From positions 1-57,942 of the forward strand of contig JAFRBB010000036.1 in NCBI GenBank assembly GCA_017405085.1: a stretch of 57,942 bases of DNA. The letters run 5' to 3'. Positions within the stretch are counted from its first letter, which is position 1, and every line of letters begins with the position of its first letter. Positions 18,434 through 57,942 of this stretch are shown piece after piece. The DNA is from Eubacteriaceae bacterium. Lineage in GTDB: Bacteria > Bacillota > Clostridia > Eubacteriales > Eubacteriaceae. The translations under genes were made by a program, and so were the position numbers. A model generated the notes under the pieces. It saw nothing but the letters and a program-made list of their open reading frames with translations. It did not search any database and was not told where the DNA came from.

Positions 18434-19810
18434 GTGGACAAAAATATTCATCATATATGGGAGGAAACCTTAAACGTCATTCGAGAAGACGTTTCTGTTA
18501 CGAAAATCAGCTTTACGACATGGTTCGCGAGCCTTGAGCCTTTAGATATGATCGATCGGGTCTTATACGTCAAAGTATCCGACGGTTTCACCCTTTCCAT
18601 TCTTTCCGGCAGGTATCAATCCCTGGTAGACAACGCGCTGCTCATGGTCACCGGACAGGCGTCTCAAGTCAAATTTGTTTTAAGCGCGTCCGAAATCCCA
18701 AATCATACCCAATCAAAGGAAGACGCGCCCTCCCATCAGGAAAATACGGCTCAGCAAGACAATTCGGCGACACCGGATTTACCATATCGCAACAATTTGA
18801 ATCCCAAATACAGCTTTGATAAATTTGTTATCGGCGAAAACAACCGGTTTGCCCATGCCGCCTGCGTAGCGGTATCCGAAGCCCCGTCGGAACGCTACAA
18901 TCCGCTGTTTATCTACGGCGGTGTCGGTCTCGGAAAAACCCATTTGATGCAGGCCATCGGCAATTATATCCTGGAGTATACCCCAGGTAAAAAAGTGGTG
19001 TATATTTCCTGCGAAACTTTCATTAATGAATTTATCGAAGCGATTCAAAACAAAGACAACAACGCTTTTCGAAATCGCTACCGCAGTGTCGATATTCTCT
19101 TAATCGATGATATTCAATTTCTTGCCGGAAAAGACGGAACCCAGGAAGAATTTTTCCATACCTTCAATGCGCTGCACGAGGAAAACAAACAAATCGTCAT
19201 CAGCTCAGACAGACCTCCGAAGGAAATTCCCAACCTGGCCGAACGCCTTCGTAGCCGCTTTGAAATGGGACTGATCACCGATATATCGGCTCCGAATTTC
19301 GAAACCAGAATGGCCATTCTCCGAAAGAAAGCCGAAGCGGGCCCGGAATACATTCCCGATGATGTGCTAAGCTTTATCGCCGATCACATTCATTCGAATA
19401 TCCGGGAACTCGAAGGGGCGCTGACCACTGTGATCGCTTATTCCAAACTCCATGGCGATAAGCTGACCCTCGATGTAGCCAAAGAGGCCCTGCACGATCT
19501 TTTCACCACCAAACAGCACGAAATCAACGCCGATTACATTAAAGAGATCACTGCGAAATATTTCAACGTCACCGTTGCCGAAATCAACGGCAAAAAACGC
19601 ACCAAAAACATCACCCTTCCCAGGCAGGTCGCCATGTATCTCTGCCGTGAAATGACCAATATGTCACTGCCGAAAATCGGAGAGGAATTTGGCGGACGTG
19701 ACCATTCGACCGTCATTCACGCATGCTCGAGAATATCCGACAACATTGAAAAAAGCGGAGACTTTAAAAATCTTGTGGTCCGCATCCAAAATGAAATCCA
19801 AGGCAGCTAA
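18434..19810 (+). CDS. dnaA: Chromosomal replication initiator DnaA
   Basis: 458 aa with a GTG start behind CGGAGGTATCC. Domain I (about 1-80) interacts with helicase and regulators. A Gln/Asn/Pro-rich linker covers about 85-120. The AAA+ domain III has Walker A GGVGLGKTH (162-170), Walker B LLIDDIQFL (about 223-231) and sensor/arginine-finger segments (LRSRFEMGL). Domain IV ends with the DnaA signature GGRDHSTVIHA (about 425-435), which reads DnaA boxes. It binds the boxes on either side of its own gene and opens the DNA at the trio element before dnaN. Confidence 0.98.
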   Translation: MDKNIHHIWEETLNVIREDVSVTKISFTTWFASLEPLDMIDRVLYVKVSDGFTLSILSGRYQSLVDNALLMVTGQASQVKFVLSASEIPNHTQSKEDAPSHQENTAQQDNSATPDLPYRNNLNPKYSFDKFVIGENNRFAHAACVAVSEAPSERYNPLFIYGGVGLGKTHLMQAIGNYILEYTPGKKVVYISCETFINEFIEAIQNKDNNAFRNRYRSVDILLIDDIQFLAGKDGTQEEFFHTFNALHEENKQIVISSDRPPKEIPNLAERLRSRFEMGLITDISAPNFETRMAILRKKAEAGPEYIPDDVLSFIADHIHSNIRELEGALTTVIAYSKLHGDKLTLDVAKEALHDLFTTKQHEINADYIKEITAKYFNVTVAEINGKKRTKNITLPRQVAMYLCREMTNMSLPKIGEEFGGRDHSTVIHACSRISDNIEKSGDFKNLVVRIQNEIQGS

Positions 19811-49567: not shown

Positions 49568-50530
49568 ATGAAACCAAGAGCAATTACAGAGGGGGCTTTA
49601 ATTACGGCGATTGCCGTTGTTTTGGCATTGGGATGCTATTATATTCCGATCCTCTACTTATTCTATGTATTGGTTCCGACGCCGATCGCCGTTTTAGCCA
49701 GGCGACAAGGCGTCGGCACGGCAGCGGTTTCGGCCCTTGCCGCCGGCGCCATCACCTTTTTGTTTATCGATCCGCTGACCGCCGCGACTTACATGCTGTA
49801 TTTTGTTTTTGTCGGCGTTTCCCTCGGATGGTGTTATGCCAACGAGAAAAACGGATTTACGCGAATGGTTGTCGGGTATTTGGGCGCTTTTATCACAGTG
49901 ATGCTTTCGATTGTCATCATCAGCACCGTCAGCGGAATCAATATCATGACACAAATCGGGGAAGCGATTGATTTGTCGAGCGGACAGGCTGTTGAGATTT
50001 ATCGTTCGGCATTGCCGGCGGATCAAGTCGGCGCTTTATCGGAATCGGTTAAAACCCTAGCGGCACAAATGAAAATGATGATGCCGGCCGTTTTTTTAAT
50101 TTTGCCGTTTTTCATCGCTTGGTTTAATGTGCTGCTGTCAGATTTTATTCTGATTCGAACCCGAAACAGAGTTGAGCCCCTTAGGCCCATCAGTCGTTGG
50201 GAAGCTCCGGTCTCATTGCAGGTCTTTATGGCTCTGATGCTGGTTGTGACCATTGTGCTTCAATTGATGCCAACGGAAGCGGTGCCGCAGGTTTATTCGA
50301 CAACCATATCGGTGTTGTCGGATGTGGTGTTTACGCTTCAGGGTTTTTCCTTTGTGTTTTGGTTTATATTTCGCAAAAGACCAAAAGAAAGTCTGCTCGT
50401 CAAAGTGATCGTTGTGTTTATTGTGATGACGGTTCCCTTTGCGTCGCTAATTCTCAGATTTATCGGTATCTTTGATATGTTTAGCGGTATTCGCAAAATC
50501 ATTGCGTATCGTGATGGTGATAGCCAATGA
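49568..50530 (+). CDS. DUF2232 family membrane protein (YybS-like)
   Basis: 320 aa with about eight helices and short loops. It begins MKPRAITEGALITAIAVVLALGCYYIPILYLF, the typical DUF2232 start, and carries the VGTAAVSALAAGAI-like segment. B. subtilis yybS lies in the same place before gdpP (yybT). Its function is unknown; some relatives resemble energy-coupling S components. The stop overlaps the gdpP ATG by 4 nt, so the two are translationally coupled. Confidence 0.87.
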   Translation: MKPRAITEGALITAIAVVLALGCYYIPILYLFYVLVPTPIAVLARRQGVGTAAVSALAAGAITFLFIDPLTAATYMLYFVFVGVSLGWCYANEKNGFTRMVVGYLGAFITVMLSIVIISTVSGINIMTQIGEAIDLSSGQAVEIYRSALPADQVGALSESVKTLAAQMKMMMPAVFLILPFFIAWFNVLLSDFILIRTRNRVEPLRPISRWEAPVSLQVFMALMLVVTIVLQLMPTEAVPQVYSTTISVLSDVVFTLQGFSFVFWFIFRKRPKESLLVKVIVVFIVMTVPFASLILRFIGIFDMFSGIRKIIAYRDGDSQ

Positions 50531-52503
50531 ATAGATATAAGATATTATTGATTATTTTTGCGTCATGCCTTATTGTTTTCGGATCGATGATGGTAAAAAC
50601 CATGCCGATTATCGGTGTTTGCGTTGGTTTGATCGGCGTGGCGGAATTGTTTATCGCGCTGTTTTATCATCAGGACGGCAATTTGGAAGCCAAGGCGGAC
50701 GCGGAGAATTTTTCAAAGGAAATTTTCCAAGTCAACCGGGATCGTCTCTATGGGCTGTCCATTCCGATGGTTGTTTTGAATCAATCCGGTGTTTCATTGA
50801 TTATTAACGACGCGTTTAAAGAATTAATGGGACAGGATATCGCCAAAAAAGGCATTAACTATTTTGAATTGTTTAACATTGATCTAAACGACGTCAACCA
50901 TAACACCATCAAAACGACTGTTTTTCAAGATAAAACCTATGCCTATGTGGTGTCGTCCTTTTCCAAGCGGGACAGGTCTTTTTATCTTCTTCATTTTGCC
51001 GATGTAACCGCCCATCAAAAGTTAATCGAGGGAGGCACCTCCGGAGATGTGGTCTTCGGTTATATTCTCATTGATAACTACGATGATATTGCCGAGCAAC
51101 TCTCGGCCGGTGAGCGCTCGGTGCTTTTCAGCCAGATTGATGTGATGATTAATCATTGGGCGGATCGTAATAACGCGGCTATTGTCAAATACGATTCGGA
51201 TCACTATCTGGCCATTTTCACCAAGAAGGATCTGGAGGTTTTCAGACGGGATCATTTCCATATTCTGGACGAAGCCAGAGAACTCGGCAGTTCCTATCAA
51301 TTGCAGGTGACGCTGAGTATCGGCATCGGAATTTCGGAGGAAGCCAAGACGATTCGGGAGAGCAATGAGCTTTCTCATGCTGCTCTCGACATTGCCCTTG
51401 CCAGAGGCGGCGATCAATGCGTCGTGCGGGAGGATGATAAAAACGCTTATTACGGGGGCAAGACCGAAGCCAAGGAAAAACGCACCAAGGTGAAAGCCCG
51501 GGTAAAAGCCCACGTCTTAAAAGATCAGATCTCGCAAGCGTCCAATGTGATTATCATGGGGCATCAAAACCCCGATATGGATTGTCTCGGCGCCGCGGTG
51601 GGGTTGCTTCGGGCATGCAAATGCATGAATAAAGAAGCGCGGTTTGTCCTAAGGGAAATCAATCCGAGCATTTCGGCTTTGATGGATTATCTCAGTATTG
51701 ATGAAGATTATGCCGAAAGTTTCATCAAACCCAAAGAAGTGAATGACTTTGTTGACGACGGCACTCTGCTCATTGTGGTGGATACCCAAAGTCTCGATTA
51801 TGTGGAAATGCCTGATCTTGTCCAGGCCATCGAAAAGATTGTGATTATCGATCATCACAGGGCGTCCGGAACAACCATCAAAAACACGATTTTTTCATAT
51901 CAGGAAGCATACGCTTCTTCCACGTGCGAGCTTGTGACCGAGCTGCTTCAATATTTTGACATTAAAGATATCCTGACAAAGGTGGAGGCCAATGCCCTTT
52001 TGGCCGGGCTTTGCATGGACACCAAAATGTTTACCCAAAAAACCGGGGTCCGAACCTTTGAGGCTGCCTCGGTGTTAAAACGCCGGGGAGGGGATACGGT
52101 CTTCGCCAAGACCATGCTCCAGGATGATATTGAAACCTATAATGCCAGATCCCGCGCTGTGGCGGGAGCGGAATTCTATTATGATCGCCGCGTTGCCATT
52201 TCGGAAATTGAAAGTGATTCCGACGAGGCGAATCTAATCGCGGCTCAGTCCGCGGATGAACTGCTAAACATCAGAGGCGTCATCGCGTCATTTATCGTGA
52301 TGAAAACGCCGGAGCGGGGCATTATCATCAGCGGCCGTTCCCTGGGGAAAATCAATGTGCAAACCATATTGGAAAAACTGGGCGGCGGCGGACATATGAC
52401 GATGGCCGGTGCGCAGCTGACGGATGTGGATGATTTGCAGGAAGCAAAACACAGAGTTCTCGGCGTGGTTGATCTGTATATGAAAGAGAGCGAACAGGCG
52501 TAG
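50527..52503 (+). CDS. gdpP: Cyclic-di-AMP phosphodiesterase GdpP (YybT family)
   Basis: 658 aa. Two N-terminal helices (about 6-50) are followed by a PAS-like domain (about 75-160), a degenerate GGDEF domain (about 170-305, no intact GG[DE]EF) and the DHH/DHHA1 phosphodiesterase. DHH motifs are MGHQNPDMDCLGAA (about 341-354), VVDTQ and IIDHHRA (about 438-444); the DHHA1 signature is GGGGHMTMAGAQ. It lowers c-di-AMP, which controls potassium and osmotic balance and beta-lactam tolerance. It is the last core gene before the integrative element; rplI and dnaB, usually next, are not in the window. Confidence 0.97.
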   Translation: MNRYKILLIIFASCLIVFGSMMVKTMPIIGVCVGLIGVAELFIALFYHQDGNLEAKADAENFSKEIFQVNRDRLYGLSIPMVVLNQSGVSLIINDAFKELMGQDIAKKGINYFELFNIDLNDVNHNTIKTTVFQDKTYAYVVSSFSKRDRSFYLLHFADVTAHQKLIEGGTSGDVVFGYILIDNYDDIAEQLSAGERSVLFSQIDVMINHWADRNNAAIVKYDSDHYLAIFTKKDLEVFRRDHFHILDEARELGSSYQLQVTLSIGIGISEEAKTIRESNELSHAALDIALARGGDQCVVREDDKNAYYGGKTEAKEKRTKVKARVKAHVLKDQISQASNVIIMGHQNPDMDCLGAAVGLLRACKCMNKEARFVLREINPSISALMDYLSIDEDYAESFIKPKEVNDFVDDGTLLIVVDTQSLDYVEMPDLVQAIEKIVIIDHHRASGTTIKNTIFSYQEAYASSTCELVTELLQYFDIKDILTKVEANALLAGLCMDTKMFTQKTGVRTFEAASVLKRRGGDTVFAKTMLQDDIETYNARSRAVAGAEFYYDRRVAISEIESDSDEANLIAAQSADELLNIRGVIASFIVMKTPERGIIISGRSLGKINVQTILEKLGGGGHMTMAGAQLTDVDDLQEAKHRVLGVVDLYMKESEQA

Positions 52504-52649
52504 TCGTCGCTAAAAAGACGTCGTCGATCAACAAACACATTTGATTGAATAGCGCGAGTCGGTAAAAAGGACGCGTCAAGCAAATTAGACCAAGCGGGTA
52601 TAAGCCCACGAGGCTTCGAACAAGAGAACAGGTATGGACCTTTGATCCC

Positions 52650-52678
52650 TTGACGAACTCGGGTAAAACTTTTATAAT
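52650..52678 (+). promoter_or_regulatory. Near-consensus promoter at the element junction
   Basis: TTGACG (52650-52655), a 17-bp spacer, TATAAT (52673-52678). It points to the right, into the integrase 3' end, where no plus-strand gene lies. It was probably the promoter of the chromosomal genes that followed gdpP before the insertion. Confidence 0.8.
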
Positions 52679-52707
52679 TTGTAATACAGGAAATTTAAAA
52701 TAACATC

Positions 52708-52738
52708 AAAAAAACGGCTGTTTAAAGCCGTTTTTAAA
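52708..52738. terminator. Bidirectional terminator at the element's left end
   Basis: AAAAACGGCT / AGCCGTTTTT (10-bp stem, 6-nt loop) with A/T-runs on both sides. It can stop transcription from the promoter at 52650 and also end the integrase mRNA on the minus strand. Confidence 0.8.
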
Positions 52739-52753
52739 TTTTAGAGTATCATG

Positions 52754-52786
52754 TTTCCCGCATTTTTCCCGCATTTTTGCCGAAAA
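52754..52786. repeat. Tandem 11-bp CCCGCAT repeats next to the integrase 3' end
   Basis: TTTCCCGCATT is repeated exactly at 52754-52764 and 52765-52775, followed by a degenerate third copy (TTTGCCGAAAA). It lies 20-50 bp from the integrase stop, where arm-type integrase sites and attL are expected. Confidence 0.7.
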
Positions 52787-52800
52787 ACATCAAGTTTGGG

Positions 52801-53871
52801 TCATTTTTGACCGGGGAATCGGATGTTTCGGATGGTGTCATCCACCGTGTCGTGGACATAAATTTTTTGGGTGGTCTGCGTCGAGGCATGACCCATAACG
52901 CGTGATATGGTCAATAAATCCGTTCCCGCCTGGTACAATAATGTCCCGTAGGTGTGACGGAGTTCATGCGGGCGTAGTTGCGGGAAATCGGGATTTTTTT
53001 CGATTACCATTTTTTGGAAATTTGAATAATTCTTTTTTCGATAGTCAGATGGCTTCACGCCGCCGAAGATCAGCGCATCAGCGTGAAATTCCGGACAGTT
53101 TGCGAGATAGTCAACCGTTTCAGCATCCAGGGGGATCGCACGCAGGGACGTCGTCGTTTTCCCATACGGTTTTTCCCCATCCCGATCGGTCAATGTTCTT
53201 CGAATGTGAAGTAATTTTTTTTCGAAATCGAAATCGCAACCTTTTAACCCCAAAAGTTCGGCAATCCTTACTCCAGTTTTTAGGATGACAAATGGACCCA
53301 ATCCGTCCGGATGCGTTTTAGCCAGATCCAATACCGCCCGATATTGGTCCATTGTGTACGCGCGCTTTTTGGCGGGTTTCCGGCCAGCCGGCGATTTTAA
53401 ATTGATAGTGGGATCAGCCGTAACCAGCCCGTTAGAAATTGCAGTTCGAAAAATTTGTTTTAACAACGTGTGGTATAATCGCAAGACCCCCTCAGTGCGA
53501 TCTTTTTTTGACGCGTAAAATCTAACAATATCAGCCTCGCGAATCGCGGTTAACGGCGCGTCTTTAAAAAAATCGGAGAAAATTTTTATCGAATTCTTAT
53601 AGGATATCTCGGTGCTTTTCTCCACACGGCCCGATTTGTAGGTCTCATACCATGTCCGCGCCCACGCCGAGAAAGTCACCGGTTTTCCGGGTGTCACCAT
53701 CGTTGCCCCAGTTGCCTGATCTATTTTGAATTTTTCAATTTTTTCCGTCAACTCTTTTTTTGTTGGCGCGTAGAAGTCTTTTCGTATCGCGCGCCCATAC
53801 ATATCGCGCCCGATAGTCACGGTTTTCCGGTAGCGCGTTCCCGGTGATTTTCCTTTCTTTTTCATTGCCAT
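52801..53871 (-). CDS. Tyrosine integrase of the integrative element
   Basis: 356 aa. An N-terminal AP2-like/arm-binding part (about 1-60) and a SAM-like core-binding domain (about 65-150) precede the catalytic domain with R202 (in TGVRIAELLGL), a Lys near 238, H302-x-x-R305 (HELRHTYGT), H328 (GHAST) and the nucleophile Y338. The set is complete, so the enzyme should be active. It resembles phage and ICE integrases of Gram-positive bacteria. The start at 53871 has AAGGGAG 5-6 nt upstream. It is transcribed towards the chromosomal junction, the usual layout at attL. Confidence 0.95.
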   Translation of the reverse strand: MAMKKKGKSPGTRYRKTVTIGRDMYGRAIRKDFYAPTKKELTEKIEKFKIDQATGATMVTPGKPVTFSAWARTWYETYKSGRVEKSTEISYKNSIKIFSDFFKDAPLTAIREADIVRFYASKKDRTEGVLRLYHTLLKQIFRTAISNGLVTADPTINLKSPAGRKPAKKRAYTMDQYRAVLDLAKTHPDGLGPFVILKTGVRIAELLGLKGCDFDFEKKLLHIRRTLTDRDGEKPYGKTTTSLRAIPLDAETVDYLANCPEFHADALIFGGVKPSDYRKKNYSNFQKMVIEKNPDFPQLRPHELRHTYGTLLYQAGTDLLTISRVMGHASTQTTQKIYVHDTVDDTIRNIRFPGQK

Positions 53872-54228
53872 TTTTTCTCCCTTTTAAAAAAACCCTTCAT
53901 ATTTATATATATACTTATTTATATATTGGATCATCCCGCATGCGGGATGACGCAAGCGATACAATCCGAGATTATCATGATTTTATCGTCCATGTCAATA
54001 TGATAAATCTCGATATTTTCTAAATTTTTTATATAAAAAAACTTTATTTTAAGACTTTTATCTTAAAAATTCATTAAATTTCACAACTTTTTTTTATTTT
54101 TTGAGCTGAATCCGAAAAAACCGTGTATAATTCACGTCGTAAAACAAATCCGGCGGGATAACGACAATATAAATACAAAATATGCATTTTTTGATCCCAC
54201 CAATTTAAAAAGAAAGGAATTAAAAAAA
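53872..54228. other. Divergent control region of the element
   Basis: AT-rich. It holds a perfect 20-bp palindrome at 53931-53950 (TCATCCCGCA / TGCGGGATGA), an imperfect inverted repeat at about 53967-54013 (CGAGATT-ATCAT / ATGAT-AAATCTCG) and a small hairpin at 54047-54068 (TTTTAAGA / TCTTAAAA). TTGAGC (54101) and TATAAT (54126-54131) could be a rightward promoter, though the 19-bp spacer is long. No repressor gene is seen. Confidence 0.6.
53931..53950. repeat. Perfect 20-bp palindrome upstream of the integrase gene
   Basis: Two halves TCATCCCGCA and TGCGGGATGA. Its centre contains the same CCCGCAT word as the repeats at 52754-52775. It lies about 60 bp upstream of the integrase start, so it may be an operator or an integrase/excisionase site. 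Confidence 0.75.
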
Positions 54229-54501
54229 ATGGCAACCAAATTAGAATTTGACAAAACAAACATGCGGTATTTACCGCCAAATGTTTACTCCGTGGGAATC
54301 ATCGATGTTGACACCAATAATTCCAATGAATTCATTGTGACGTTACGTATTAACCCCGCGTATCCGTTGAAGATCAAATTGACCAAAAAAGCGACGGACA
54401 AATCATCTAAAAATGAAATCCGCGCGTTTTTGGATGCTTTGAAATCCGGGCGTTATGTGAAGTATATCCACAATAATATCGATATATTATATGTGATTTA
54501 A
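54229..54501 (+). CDS. Small element protein, unknown function
   Basis: 90 aa, with a good ribosome binding site (AAAGAAAGGAATT, then ATG). It begins MATKLEFDKTNMRYLPPNVYSVGIIDVDTNN and is predicted as mixed beta/alpha; the middle (IVTLRINPAYPLKIKL) looks like beta strands and the end is Lys-rich. First gene rightward from the control region, in the place where elements often encode small regulators, but no DNA-binding motif is evident. Confidence 0.65.
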   Translation: MATKLEFDKTNMRYLPPNVYSVGIIDVDTNNSNEFIVTLRINPAYPLKIKLTKKATDKSSKNEIRAFLDALKSGRYVKYIHNNIDILYVI

Positions 54502-54513
54502 CTCCAACAGCAG

Positions 54514-54538
54514 CCGGGGCGGCTAATCACCGCCCCGG
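54514..54538 (+). terminator. GC-rich hairpin between two element genes
   Basis: A perfect 9-bp stem CCGGGGCGG / CCGCCCCGG with a 7-nt loop, 13 nt after the first small gene. No T-run follows, so it may act as an mRNA stabiliser or attenuator rather than a full terminator. Confidence 0.6.
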
Positions 54539-54563
54539 AAATTGAGAAAGAGAGGGATGACAA

Positions 54564-54827
54564 ATGACAACAATAGAAACACCAAAATTAATTACAGATG
54601 CAGACCGGCATTTCATTGACATCGTAACACGCGACACATCGCCGTATTTATCAACACGACAGGCAGCGGATGCGCTGGGGATACCGCAGCGACGTTTCCA
54701 AGATATAACAGCACAGGGCGTTCCCTTTGGTTTTGTGACGGTGTCCGGTACAGGGCGCAGGGACGGCCTGTTTTTGAAATCAGTCTTATGGCGTTGGTAT
54801 TTCGGATCGGGAGGTGATGCAGCGTGA
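54564..54827 (+). CDS. Helix-turn-helix-like small protein
   Basis: 87 aa. The segment YLSTRQAADALGIPQRRFQDITAQG (about 30-54) looks like a MerR/excisionase-type winged-helix DNA-binding motif, with residues after it (VPFGFVTVSGTGRRDGLFLKSVL) fitting the wing. It could be an excisionase or small regulator of the integrase (inference from the motif and the place). The start follows AGAGAGGGATGACAA. The stop overlaps the next gene's GTG by 4 nt. Confidence 0.65.
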   Translation: MTTIETPKLITDADRHFIDIVTRDTSPYLSTRQAADALGIPQRRFQDITAQGVPFGFVTVSGTGRRDGLFLKSVLWRWYFGSGGDAA

Positions 54828-55183
54828 AATTGATGTTAAAAATCCCGGACGCCACATTGAACCGCTATATCGGGGCAGAACGAAAAAACAAGTTTTACGG
54901 CGCGACGCTGAAAAAACGCGAAACCGACAGCGCAGCGGAACAGATCAAAATCGCGATGCTGGCGGGGACACGGTTTACATGGCCCGCAAGGTTGAAATTT
55001 ATCTGGCATTTGAAAAATTCACGCACGGATCCCGACAATATCGCTTTTACCAAAAAATTTATTTTAGACGGAATGCAAGACTGCGGTTTTTTGGAAAATG
55101 ACAATGTAAAAAATATCACGGGATTTACAGATGATTTTATAGTTGACGGAAAAAACATTGTTGAAATTCAAGAAATACATTAA
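54824..55183 (+). CDS. RusA-like Holliday junction resolvase
   Basis: 119 aa with a GTG start overlapping the previous stop. RusA features are N-R-Y-I-G-A-E-R-K-N-K-F, then WHLKNSRTDPDNIAFTKKFILDGMQDCGFLENDNVKNITGFTDDFIVD. The D-P-D-N catalytic motif and a late Asp (ND-N) are the metal-binding residues known for RusA. It cuts four-way junctions during phage-type replication and packaging. The family match is fairly strong even though the N-terminus is divergent. Confidence 0.82.
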   Translation: MKLMLKIPDATLNRYIGAERKNKFYGATLKKRETDSAAEQIKIAMLAGTRFTWPARLKFIWHLKNSRTDPDNIAFTKKFILDGMQDCGFLENDNVKNITGFTDDFIVDGKNIVEIQEIH

Positions 55184-55207
55184 TTAAAAAAAGGAGGTAC
55201 AAAAACA

Positions 55208-55402
55208 ATGACACTATTACCACAGGCAAAACGTAGACAACCGGGTGCAATCACACGGCAAATCAGATAAATCTCTGGGGTGGAGTCAGTGCTACCGACA
55301 CCGGCGGTAAAGTCTTGCGTGAAAAATGCGTTAGAGTTTTTGCCAGCACACGCTCACAAGACGGCGGGGTTAAGAAGCGTCACGCTACCACAAAAAAATT
55401 AA
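55208..55402 (+). pseudogene. Small reading frame split by a stop codon
   Basis: AAAGGAGG and ATG at 55208 open MTLLPQAKRRQPGAITRQIR, then TAA (55268-55270). The same frame continues with ISGVESVLPTPAVKSC ... VTLPQKN to a TAA at 55400-55402. Either there is a 20-residue peptide with a very strong start, or a roughly 64-residue gene carries a nonsense codon. No family is recognised. A GTG at 55280 could restart but has no good ribosome binding site. Confidence 0.4.
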
Positions 55403-55407
55403 CAAAA

Positions 55408-55545
55408 ATGGAGTCTAGCCCCGCAAATTGTTTTATTGATAATTCAGATATAACAGGAAAAACCTGCCCCTATTATTTAGACAAAGAATGGTATATCGCA
55501 GAGGCCCACAAGAGACTGGCGGGGTTTGGTATAGGCGGTGATTAA
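55408..55545 (+). CDS. Small Cys-containing protein before the primase
   Basis: About 45 aa from the ATG at 55408; the frame is open from 55315. It has C-F-I-D-N-S-D-I-T-G-K-T-C-P-Y-Y and ends AEAHKRLAGFGIGGD. Composition looks coding, but the true start is uncertain, since no good ribosome binding site is seen before either start. It overlaps the primase frame by a few nt, typical of phage modules. Unknown function. Confidence 0.45.
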   Translation: MESSPANCFIDNSDITGKTCPYYLDKEWYIAEAHKRLAGFGIGGD

Positions 55546-55546
55546 G

Positions 55547-57475
55547 ATGACAACAACATTATATAAAGGATACGTCAAGACTAAAAATAAGAAATCAGTT
55601 GAAAAATTTAAAGACATCCCACCTTCACAACTCCGGACCCTTTCTCAAGCGCAAGAATGCGATAGTTACGGCGGGGTTCTTGCAGAGGATACATTACTAA
55701 TCGATATCGACGATCAAACACAATCCGAGATACTTTTCAGGATCGTCCAAGACGGCCGGATACCATGCAAGGTCATTAAAACCACCCGTGGGAAACACTT
55801 CATTTTCAAGAATAACGGTGATTTTACGCGGTGTGGGACTGATATCAGATTGGCAATCGGCCTATTCGCAGATATAAAAATCGGGTCTAAAAATTCCTAC
55901 GAAATTTTGAAAATTGACGGGTCTTTACGGCCTGTTGAGTATGATACCGGCGAATATGGGGAAGCACCGAAATTTTTGTCACCGGTTAAGTCCGATAAAG
56001 ATCTTTTAACCATGGGTGACGGTGATGGACGGAATTCCGCGCTATACGGCTATAAGATGACCCTGCATAAAAGAGGATTTGATGCTGATCAAATTACACA
56101 GACAGTTGCCATAATCAATCGCTACATTTTCAAAGTGCCACTACCGGATATTGAGATGGAGACGATTTTAAGACAAGAGGATTTTTCAGAAATTCCACCG
56201 GCATTTTACGATGAAAACGGCCGGTTCTTGCACGCCGTATTCGGAGACCACATGATTAAAAAGTATTCGATGGTCCGGATGGATGACAAACCGTATATTT
56301 TTAACGGGAAAGTGTATCGCAGCACAGAGCATGATATATACCAAAAAATGATTCAAGAACTAAAAGTTGTAAAGGCCGCACAGAGGGTTGAAACATACAA
56401 ATACATAGACTGTTTACTGGACAATGTCGAAGCCCCGCCGCGAGATAGATTTATCGCATTTAAAAACGGGGTGGTTGACCTAACAACGGGCAATCTTCTA
56501 CCACATGGTCCGGAGTTTCTACTCACAAATTTAATTCCTTTTAATTATGATCCCACGGCTCATAGCGATCTTTTAGACAAAACGCTAATGAAATTAGCGT
56601 GCGGTGATCCGGAAATGGTGCGCGTTATGGTGGAAATGGTCGGCTATTGCATGTTTGGGGAAAACACGTTTCAGAAATCGTTTTTTTTGACAGGCAGTGA
56701 GGGATCCAACGGGAAAAGCACTTTCCTGAATCTCTTGAAGTATATGTTAGGCAAGGAAAACTATTCAGCATTAGACGTATCACAGCTTGCAGAGAGATTC
56801 AGTACCGTTATGTTGGATGGAAAACTTGCCAACATCGGCGACGATGTGGACGAGAGTTATTTGTCCGGACCGCAACTAAGAACGTTCAAGCTGGCCGTGA
56901 CGGGAGAGACGATCAAGGCCGAACAAAAAGGACAGGCCGCCTATGACATGGAAAGCCGCGCCAAGTTGATTTTTTCAGCCAACAAGCTGCCGAGATTTGA
57001 AAGTGGGGGGTTAAAGGCAATAATCCGGCGGCTAGTGATTATTCGTTTTGATGCCCATTTCACCCCAGCCGATCCCGATTATGACCCCAATTTAATTTAT
57101 AAACTACGTACACCCGAAGTCGCCGAAGCATTAATTGCGTATGGAGTAGACGCGCTAAGAGAGGTTATCAAGAGCAAGAGATTCACAGAGCCGGCTAAGG
57201 TCAGAAACGCGGTTAAGGCGTTTGAGAAGGAATGCAACCCCGTTATATTATTTGTTGAAGATTTAGATATTGACGGTGAGATTATTGGTAAATCCACCAA
57301 AGATGTGTATTTGAGATATTCAGTATGGTGCGAAGAAAACGGGCATAAACCGCTGTCCAACACGTCATTCACTCGCGAAATTAAATCTATTTTACGATGC
57401 GAGACAAAGCCGGCGTCGGTGAAAGGTATGGACGGATCATGGAAAACAGCGAGAATCTTCGTTAGTATTGACTAA
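55547..57475 (+). CDS. Phage/plasmid primase-helicase, P4/D5 family
   Basis: 642 aa from the ATG at 55547 (a GTG three codons earlier is possible). The N-terminal about 150 residues look like a primase-polymerase domain: LLIDIDD with two Asp residues, GKHFIFKN and RLAIGLFADIKIGSKN. A primase C-terminal linker follows (GDGDGRNSALYGY). The D5_N / SF3 helicase part has Walker A GSEGSNGKST (about 383-392), Walker B-like GDDVDE and the ANKLPRF sensor with later Arg residues. A C-terminal winged-helix region closes it. This is the replication initiator of phages, satellites and PICI-like elements. It is followed by repeats that could be the origin. Confidence 0.93.
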   Translation: MTTTLYKGYVKTKNKKSVEKFKDIPPSQLRTLSQAQECDSYGGVLAEDTLLIDIDDQTQSEILFRIVQDGRIPCKVIKTTRGKHFIFKNNGDFTRCGTDIRLAIGLFADIKIGSKNSYEILKIDGSLRPVEYDTGEYGEAPKFLSPVKSDKDLLTMGDGDGRNSALYGYKMTLHKRGFDADQITQTVAIINRYIFKVPLPDIEMETILRQEDFSEIPPAFYDENGRFLHAVFGDHMIKKYSMVRMDDKPYIFNGKVYRSTEHDIYQKMIQELKVVKAAQRVETYKYIDCLLDNVEAPPRDRFIAFKNGVVDLTTGNLLPHGPEFLLTNLIPFNYDPTAHSDLLDKTLMKLACGDPEMVRVMVEMVGYCMFGENTFQKSFFLTGSEGSNGKSTFLNLLKYMLGKENYSALDVSQLAERFSTVMLDGKLANIGDDVDESYLSGPQLRTFKLAVTGETIKAEQKGQAAYDMESRAKLIFSANKLPRFESGGLKAIIRRLVIIRFDAHFTPADPDYDPNLIYKLRTPEVAEALIAYGVDALREVIKSKRFTEPAKVRNAVKAFEKECNPVILFVEDLDIDGEIIGKSTKDVYLRYSVWCEENGHKPLSNTSFTREIKSILRCETKPASVKGMDGSWKTARIFVSID

Positions 57476-57491
57476 CATTTACCACAGATTT

Positions 57492-57690
57492 TATTACACT
57501 TATTACGGATGTATTACACTTTTTCAGACAAAGTGTAATACGAAAAAACGGCGTCGTTAAGCCATTTATCCTTATTTATTACACTTATTACACTTTAATA
57601 TTACTAGTAATAATTTATATATTATATACCTATATATATTTTATAAAAATGAGCGGTAGGTGAAGGGTGTAATATCTGTAATAAGTGTAA
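57492..57690. repeat. Iteron-like repeats downstream of the primase gene (candidate element origin)
   Basis: TATTACACTT occurs directly at 57492-57501, 57512-57521, 57577-57586 and 57586-57595, and inverted (AAGTGTAATA) at 57531-57540. Related GGTGTAATA and AAGTGTAA copies lie at about 57665-57690. The pair at 57511-57541 makes a 12-bp inverted repeat (GTATTACACTTT / AAAGTGTAATAC). An AT-rich tract (about 57596-57650) adjoins. Iterons next to a primase-helicase gene fit a replication origin. Confidence 0.7.
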
Positions 57691-57942
57691 CAACGATATC
57701 AAAAAACGGCGGATAGTGGCAGTATAATGGTGTAAAATTGAAAACCAAAAAACGAGCCAAGTGCTCCGCCTTTAGGTATAATGTAAATAAGCAAAAAACA
57801 CATTACCAAGGAGGCAAAACACATGGCTCAACTCAATATTACACTAAATCAAGACGAAATTCTACAATTACTTTCAAAAGATAAGGATGCCGCATTCGCA
57901 AAGCTCCTTCAGGAAAGTCTTAACTGCATCTTGAAAGCCGAA
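57690..57942 (+). mobile_element. IS256-family insertion sequence, left part (cut by window edge)
   Basis: The transposase start and its promoter-like leader (GGTATAATG about 57776) are present. The terminal inverted repeat should lie somewhere in about 57690-57745 but cannot be fixed without the other end. Confidence 0.6.
57823..57942 (+). CDS. IS256-family transposase, N-terminal part (partial)
   Basis: 40 residues to the window edge: MAQLNITLNQDEILQLLSKD, then K-D-A-A-F-A-K-L-L-Q-E-S-L-N-C-I-L-K-A-E. This matches the well-known start of clostridial IS256-family (mutator-type DDE) transposases. The ribosome binding site AAGGAGG lies 7 nt upstream. The catalytic DDE residues are outside the window, so activity cannot be judged. 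Confidence 0.85.
   Translation, partial: MAQLNITLNQDEILQLLSKDKDAAFAKLLQESLNCILKAE

Follow-up and report, generated by a model that had tools for sequence, protein, structure and literature searches.

The right end of the window, which is the whole stretch of 57,942 nucleotides analysed here from a Eubacteriaceae bacterium, is probably the left portion of a tailed-phage-derived integrative element, deleted for most of its DNA polymerase gene and located in the leader of the rplI-dnaB operon. We regard this element, on balance, as a degraded prophage or a prophage-derived replicon and not as an autonomous phage, and its phage ancestry is deduced from the presence of a phage polymerase remnant. 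As a mobile element it is of a common type, and only its landing site is somewhat out of the ordinary.

The window corresponds to one whole contig (C9) of a 2.2-Mb assembly composed of 70 contigs and 96% complete; position 57942 is the contig end, a fact which had not been noticed in an earlier reading of this DNA (the sequence-only reading). In the left part of the window are found mnmE, mnmG, parA/parB-type genes, rpsF, ssb and rpsR, and from position 18434 dnaA, dnaN, recF, gyrB and gyrA, all named by sequence and gene order without family search, while a DUF2232 gene recognised by family search is located between the rpsR side and gdpP. The left chromosomal flank of the element is gdpP itself (c-di-AMP phosphodiesterase; 50527-52503, plus strand), which carries the Pfam domains GGDEF_GdpP, DHH and DHHA1 and is 84% identical to the copy of a congener (G001). 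The element lies about 34 kb from dnaA, in agreement with the origin-region context proposed previously.

The first gene of the element encodes a tyrosine integrase of 356 amino acids (52801-53871, minus strand; Pfam PF00589, 1e-19; PHROG integrase, 4e-58), complete as had been claimed, with its 3' end facing gdpP and the R...HxxR...H...Y motifs present. Relatives 35-41% identical to it were found both in prophages and in integrative elements of the same family; by eye, further prophage-like elements, and elements which carry ParA- and relaxase-like genes, also have integrases of this group. As this group is present on several kinds of element, the integrase alone cannot type the element. Two small genes on the plus strand had been described as regulator-like. 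For one of them the description stands in weakened form: the early HTH proteins of eight elements whose integrases are related were combined into a profile, which among the window ORFs matched best (E 5e-4) the 87 amino acid product of 54564-54827. This product, with its distant resemblance to the HTH type, may be an early HTH protein, either RDF-like (PHROG RDF, E 0.12) or an early regulator. The other, a 90 amino acid ORF at 54229-54501, could be assigned to no family (best Pfam E 0.14), and a Cro/CI-type repressor was not seen anywhere from int to the primase gene. The RusA-like Holliday-junction resolvase of 119 amino acids (54824-55183, plus strand) was confirmed by a match to PHROG 1682 (3.6e-32) and by its DPDN motif.

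Directly upstream of the primase gene, where in phages the full polymerase gene is found close by, the C-terminal ~74 of about 570 residues of a phage DNA polymerase (PHROG 1252) are encoded at 55303-55518 on the plus strand, the remnant lying in the open frame 55315-55545. The remnant is 43% identical to residues 485-558 of the polymerase of Paenibacillus phage LincolnB (3e-13), 40% to the polymerase of a prophage in a Clostridia MAG (L060; 2e-14) and 33% to that of a prophage in a genome of the host's family (G009), and polymerase matches were obtained solely to tailed phages or prophages. There was no significant match for the remaining ~86% of the gene, and in place of the complete replication polymerase of a LincolnB-like module only the stub is present. 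The small ORF at 55303-55518 was considered as a regulator and rejected, being the polymerase stub. A further short ORF with a ribosome-binding site (55209-55303) enters the stub in a different frame and is possibly the scar of the deletion which removed the polymerase.

The primase-helicase of 645 amino acids (55538-57475, plus strand) is of the D5/P4 type, as read before, with matches to TIGR01613 (1e-62), DUF5906, D5_N, Pox_D5 and PHROG 864 (7e-160), an IDIDD motif and an intact Walker A (GSEGSNGKST). Its full-length relatives are found in tailed phages or prophages (LincolnB, Staphylococcus phage PI-Sepi-HH2 and the G009 prophage on contig C48), while the sampled matches to Streptococcus satellite primases comprise part of the helicase domain only (32-49% of the query, 27-32% identity). 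The stretch which follows (57476-57710, taken on the plus strand) is non-coding and is a probable replication origin, in which TATTACAC iterons, four forward and two reverse, flank an AT-rich core located near 57594-57643. This 8-mer occurs six times on both strands in 57476-57711, a count reached in 0 of 300 dinucleotide shuffles, and all six occurrences of TTATTACACTT with at most one mismatch in the entire window fall in the origin stretch, compared to 0.8 expected. The repeats previously called iteron-like are thus true iterons in both orientations.

The succession of integrase, primase and iterons had been taken as the layout of a satellite. The layout is indeed there, but the satellite identity was not borne out, since LincolnB and PI-Sepi-HH2 have the same layout. 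A PICI/SaPI-type satellite, which would replicate from an iteron origin with a primase-helicase of its own and depend on a helper phage for packaging, is nevertheless the strongest of the alternatives, even if an unlikely one. The compact arrangement from int to primase with a leftward int at one end would suit it, the lack of a full polymerase is expected if host or helper performs the synthesis, and the intact frames of integrase, RusA and primase fit an active satellite equally well. The origin of PICIs is located 3' of the replication gene and has two iteron sets flanking an AT-rich region (PMC6092414), which is also the arrangement observed here; as this plan is common to full tailed phages and PICIs, it is not diagnostic between them. 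Against a satellite stand the primase comparison, in which the satellite matches cover less than half of the query and LincolnB covers 95% of it at 40% identity, and the polymerase remnant, which suggests phage ancestry. PICIs are further characterised by regulators such as Stl or AlpA, packaging and interference genes, an attachment site unused by prophages, phage-dependent induction and packaging in helper particles (PMC6092414), and in the 5 kb available no stl- or alpA-type regulator and no packaging or interference gene was seen.

Immediately beyond the origin, an IS256-family insertion sequence begins, which was missed in the sequence-only reading. The last ~232 bp of the contig (57711-57942, plus strand) are its left end, and its transposase N-terminus (57823-57942) is interrupted where the contig stops. 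At least seven other contigs terminate in a near-identical or related copy. The assignment to the IS256 family is given by a mutator-type transposase (Transposase_mut, 1.3e-5, on the copy in contig C28) and by 8-bp target duplications: among the ten right ends of the IS read in the host assembly, exact duplications pair contigs C26-C28, C17-C31 and C54-C41, and two further pairs are found with one mismatch. No duplication partner for the flank of the window IS was present among the ten right ends; barring recombination between IS copies, the assembly therefore lacks the right side of the element. On seven right-end contigs the genes flanking the IS were mostly chromosomal, one of these contigs having cas genes, and neither a phage structural gene nor rplI was recognised among them. 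In contig C3 (L123) cas4-, cas1- and cas2-like genes directly adjoin an IS256-family copy.

The absence of rplI and dnaB beside gdpP, already reported, extends to the whole window and to the entire 2.2-Mb assembly. A single weak DnaB_C match (28 bits) was rejected as dnaB and is probably RadA. When gdpP and the 7.7 kb which follow it in G001 (rplI, dnaB, rsmI-like and metG-like genes) were compared to the host assembly, only gdpP matched, in a search sensitive enough to detect a 148-bp stretch at 77% identity. Most likely rplI, dnaB and more than 7 kb of downstream chromosome sit on the missing contig.

Structural phage genes had been noted as absent from the first 5 kb of the element, and none were found there. 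In the whole assembly, which lacks the right arm, there was no match to the TerL protein of the G009 prophage (a search without positive control) or to the SPP1-portal family. Nor were near-identical copies of the element detected in viral contigs, phages or plasmids. The same genome contains, entire within contig C11 (L095, 12700-17900), another small integrative element of about 5 kb, with genes for a VapE-like primase, an HTH protein, an Xre-type repressor and a tyrosine integrase and with no structural genes seen; the N-terminus of its primase shares 32% identity with the window primase. In contig C20 (L098) tandem genes encoding similar, secreted-looking proteins of ~1200 amino acids lie beside a truncated integrase.

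Less probable still than a satellite is a full-length temperate prophage of which the window would show the left arm, with a short early region, a polymerase lost or replaced, and structural genes to the right of the IS in the missing contig. Homologous modules do occur in full tailed phages, and the sequence to the right of the IS lies outside the assembly; as this missing side most likely also contains rplI-dnaB, a large unbinned stretch exists in which such genes could lie. The truncated polymerase, the lack of a repressor between int and the early genes and the IS just past the origin speak against it, as do the terminase and portal searches, bearing in mind that the missing contig is outside the assembly searched.

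In all 16 relatives examined, from the same family or order, gdpP, rplI and dnaB are contiguous; 14 of them have about 0 bp between gdpP and rplI, one has 38 bp and G001 has 352 bp. G001 and the 15 others thus represent the site without the element, which gives good support to the earlier proposal of an element landing between gdpP and rplI-dnaB near oriC. The probable host promoter region of the rplI-dnaB operon has been kept at the left edge of the element (52643-52694, plus strand). Its alignment to the sequence directly upstream of rplI in G001 gives a local score of 25.5, the maximum of 500 shuffles being 23, and its promoter TTGACG-17-TATAAT (52650-52678) has a counterpart in the gdpP-rplI spacer of G001. 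The similarity to the empty site ends at about 52695-52709, where we place the left junction (attL side), followed by a terminator-like hairpin with T runs on both strands (52710-52735, annotated on the minus strand) between int and the host promoter. A copy of this hairpin, 86% similar, is present in contig C11 of the same genome. Because the homology of the promoter to G001 ends at the left edge, the element appears to be inside the rplI leader, directly 3' of the promoter. The integrase and this left edge point to site-specific integration. In the window there is no tRNA or tmRNA which could serve as attB, none of the closest integrase relatives sits near gdpP in its own genome, none of the 16 relatives has a comparable element site between gdpP and rplI, and a small literature search gave no relevant report of integration at rplI or gdpP. 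The 352-bp spacer of G001 (L063, 2944-3292), which has its own promoter where nearly all relatives have about 0 bp, might be an older insertion scar.

A chromosomal rearrangement, e.g. a recombination of IS256 copies, in place of a site-specific insertion between gdpP and rplI is very improbable: the genome does contain many IS copies and the IS at the window end is without duplication partner among the right ends found, but the left edge is in the rplI leader, next to an integrase and at a place where no IS is present, the counterpart of the congener's promoter is still in position, and a rearrangement at the IS would alter only the sequence past 57711.

In the history which we favour, recombination by the tyrosine integrase would have put the element into the rplI-dnaB leader, just 3' of the operon promoter. 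The element would have kept int, the putative early HTH protein, RusA, the primase-helicase and the iteron origin, and would have lost most of the polymerase gene and the repressor block; the IS256-family insertion is situated immediately beyond the origin. The integrase is predicted to integrate and excise the element. The primase-helicase may bind the iterons, melt the AT-rich core, prime and unwind, with synthesis carried out by the host polymerase and branched intermediates resolved by RusA. The element is probably defective. It is conceivable, though we think it highly doubtful, that by separating the rplI-dnaB promoter from its genes the element makes expression of the replicative helicase operon depend on the integration state. 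Excision would then restore the native promoter, the integrated state would rely on a promoter at the right end of the element, and the whole would amount to a mobile-element switch on dnaB close to the origin.

The element is a clear example of a phage replication module of which integrase, primase-helicase and origin are left, while a C-terminal stub still testifies to the lost polymerase, and such a stripped module is the intermediate type expected between prophages and satellites. Judged from the relatives examined and the small literature search, the location near oriC just past the rplI-dnaB promoter is unusual. The case is also a reminder that the decisive half of an element may be concealed when a contig stops within an IS.

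Compared to known systems, the element has an intact recombinase at one end and an empty site in a relative, as is usual for tyrosine-integrase elements. With the PICI/SaPI satellites it shares compactness and the layout of int, primase/Rep and iteron origin, and it differs from them in a primase closer to those of tailed phages; their packaging and regulatory genes were not seen in the 5 kb available. Staphylococcus phage PI-Sepi-HH2 has a leftward integrase at one end, a primase 35% identical to that of the window and, 3' of the primase, an AT-rich core flanked by iterons (CATAAGACA) in both orientations; it is, in distinction, a 36-kb element with 11.8 kb of early genes and downstream structural-type genes, e.g. 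for a ClpP-like protease. The G009 prophage, located away from gdpP and with no iteron array directly 3' of its primase, combines on one element and in the same order as in the window a leftward integrase of the same subfamily (39% identity), the polymerase (33% between its C-terminus and the remnant) and the primase-helicase (39%), and has an early HTH protein as well. Unlike the window it carries, in the interval between integrase and primase, genes for an S24-type repressor, a helicase, a nuclease, a methyltransferase-like protein and a full polymerase, and elsewhere terminase-like, portal and tail genes. Between int and primase lie 13.8 kb in G009, 11.8 kb in PI-Sepi-HH2 and 1.7 kb in the window. 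LincolnB (Wanderervirus, Gochnauervirinae) is a complete tailed phage with a full polymerase and another iteron sequence, and it provides relatives of both primase (40% over 95%) and polymerase C-terminus (43%), together with an AT-rich, repeat-bearing non-coding stretch 3' of the primase.
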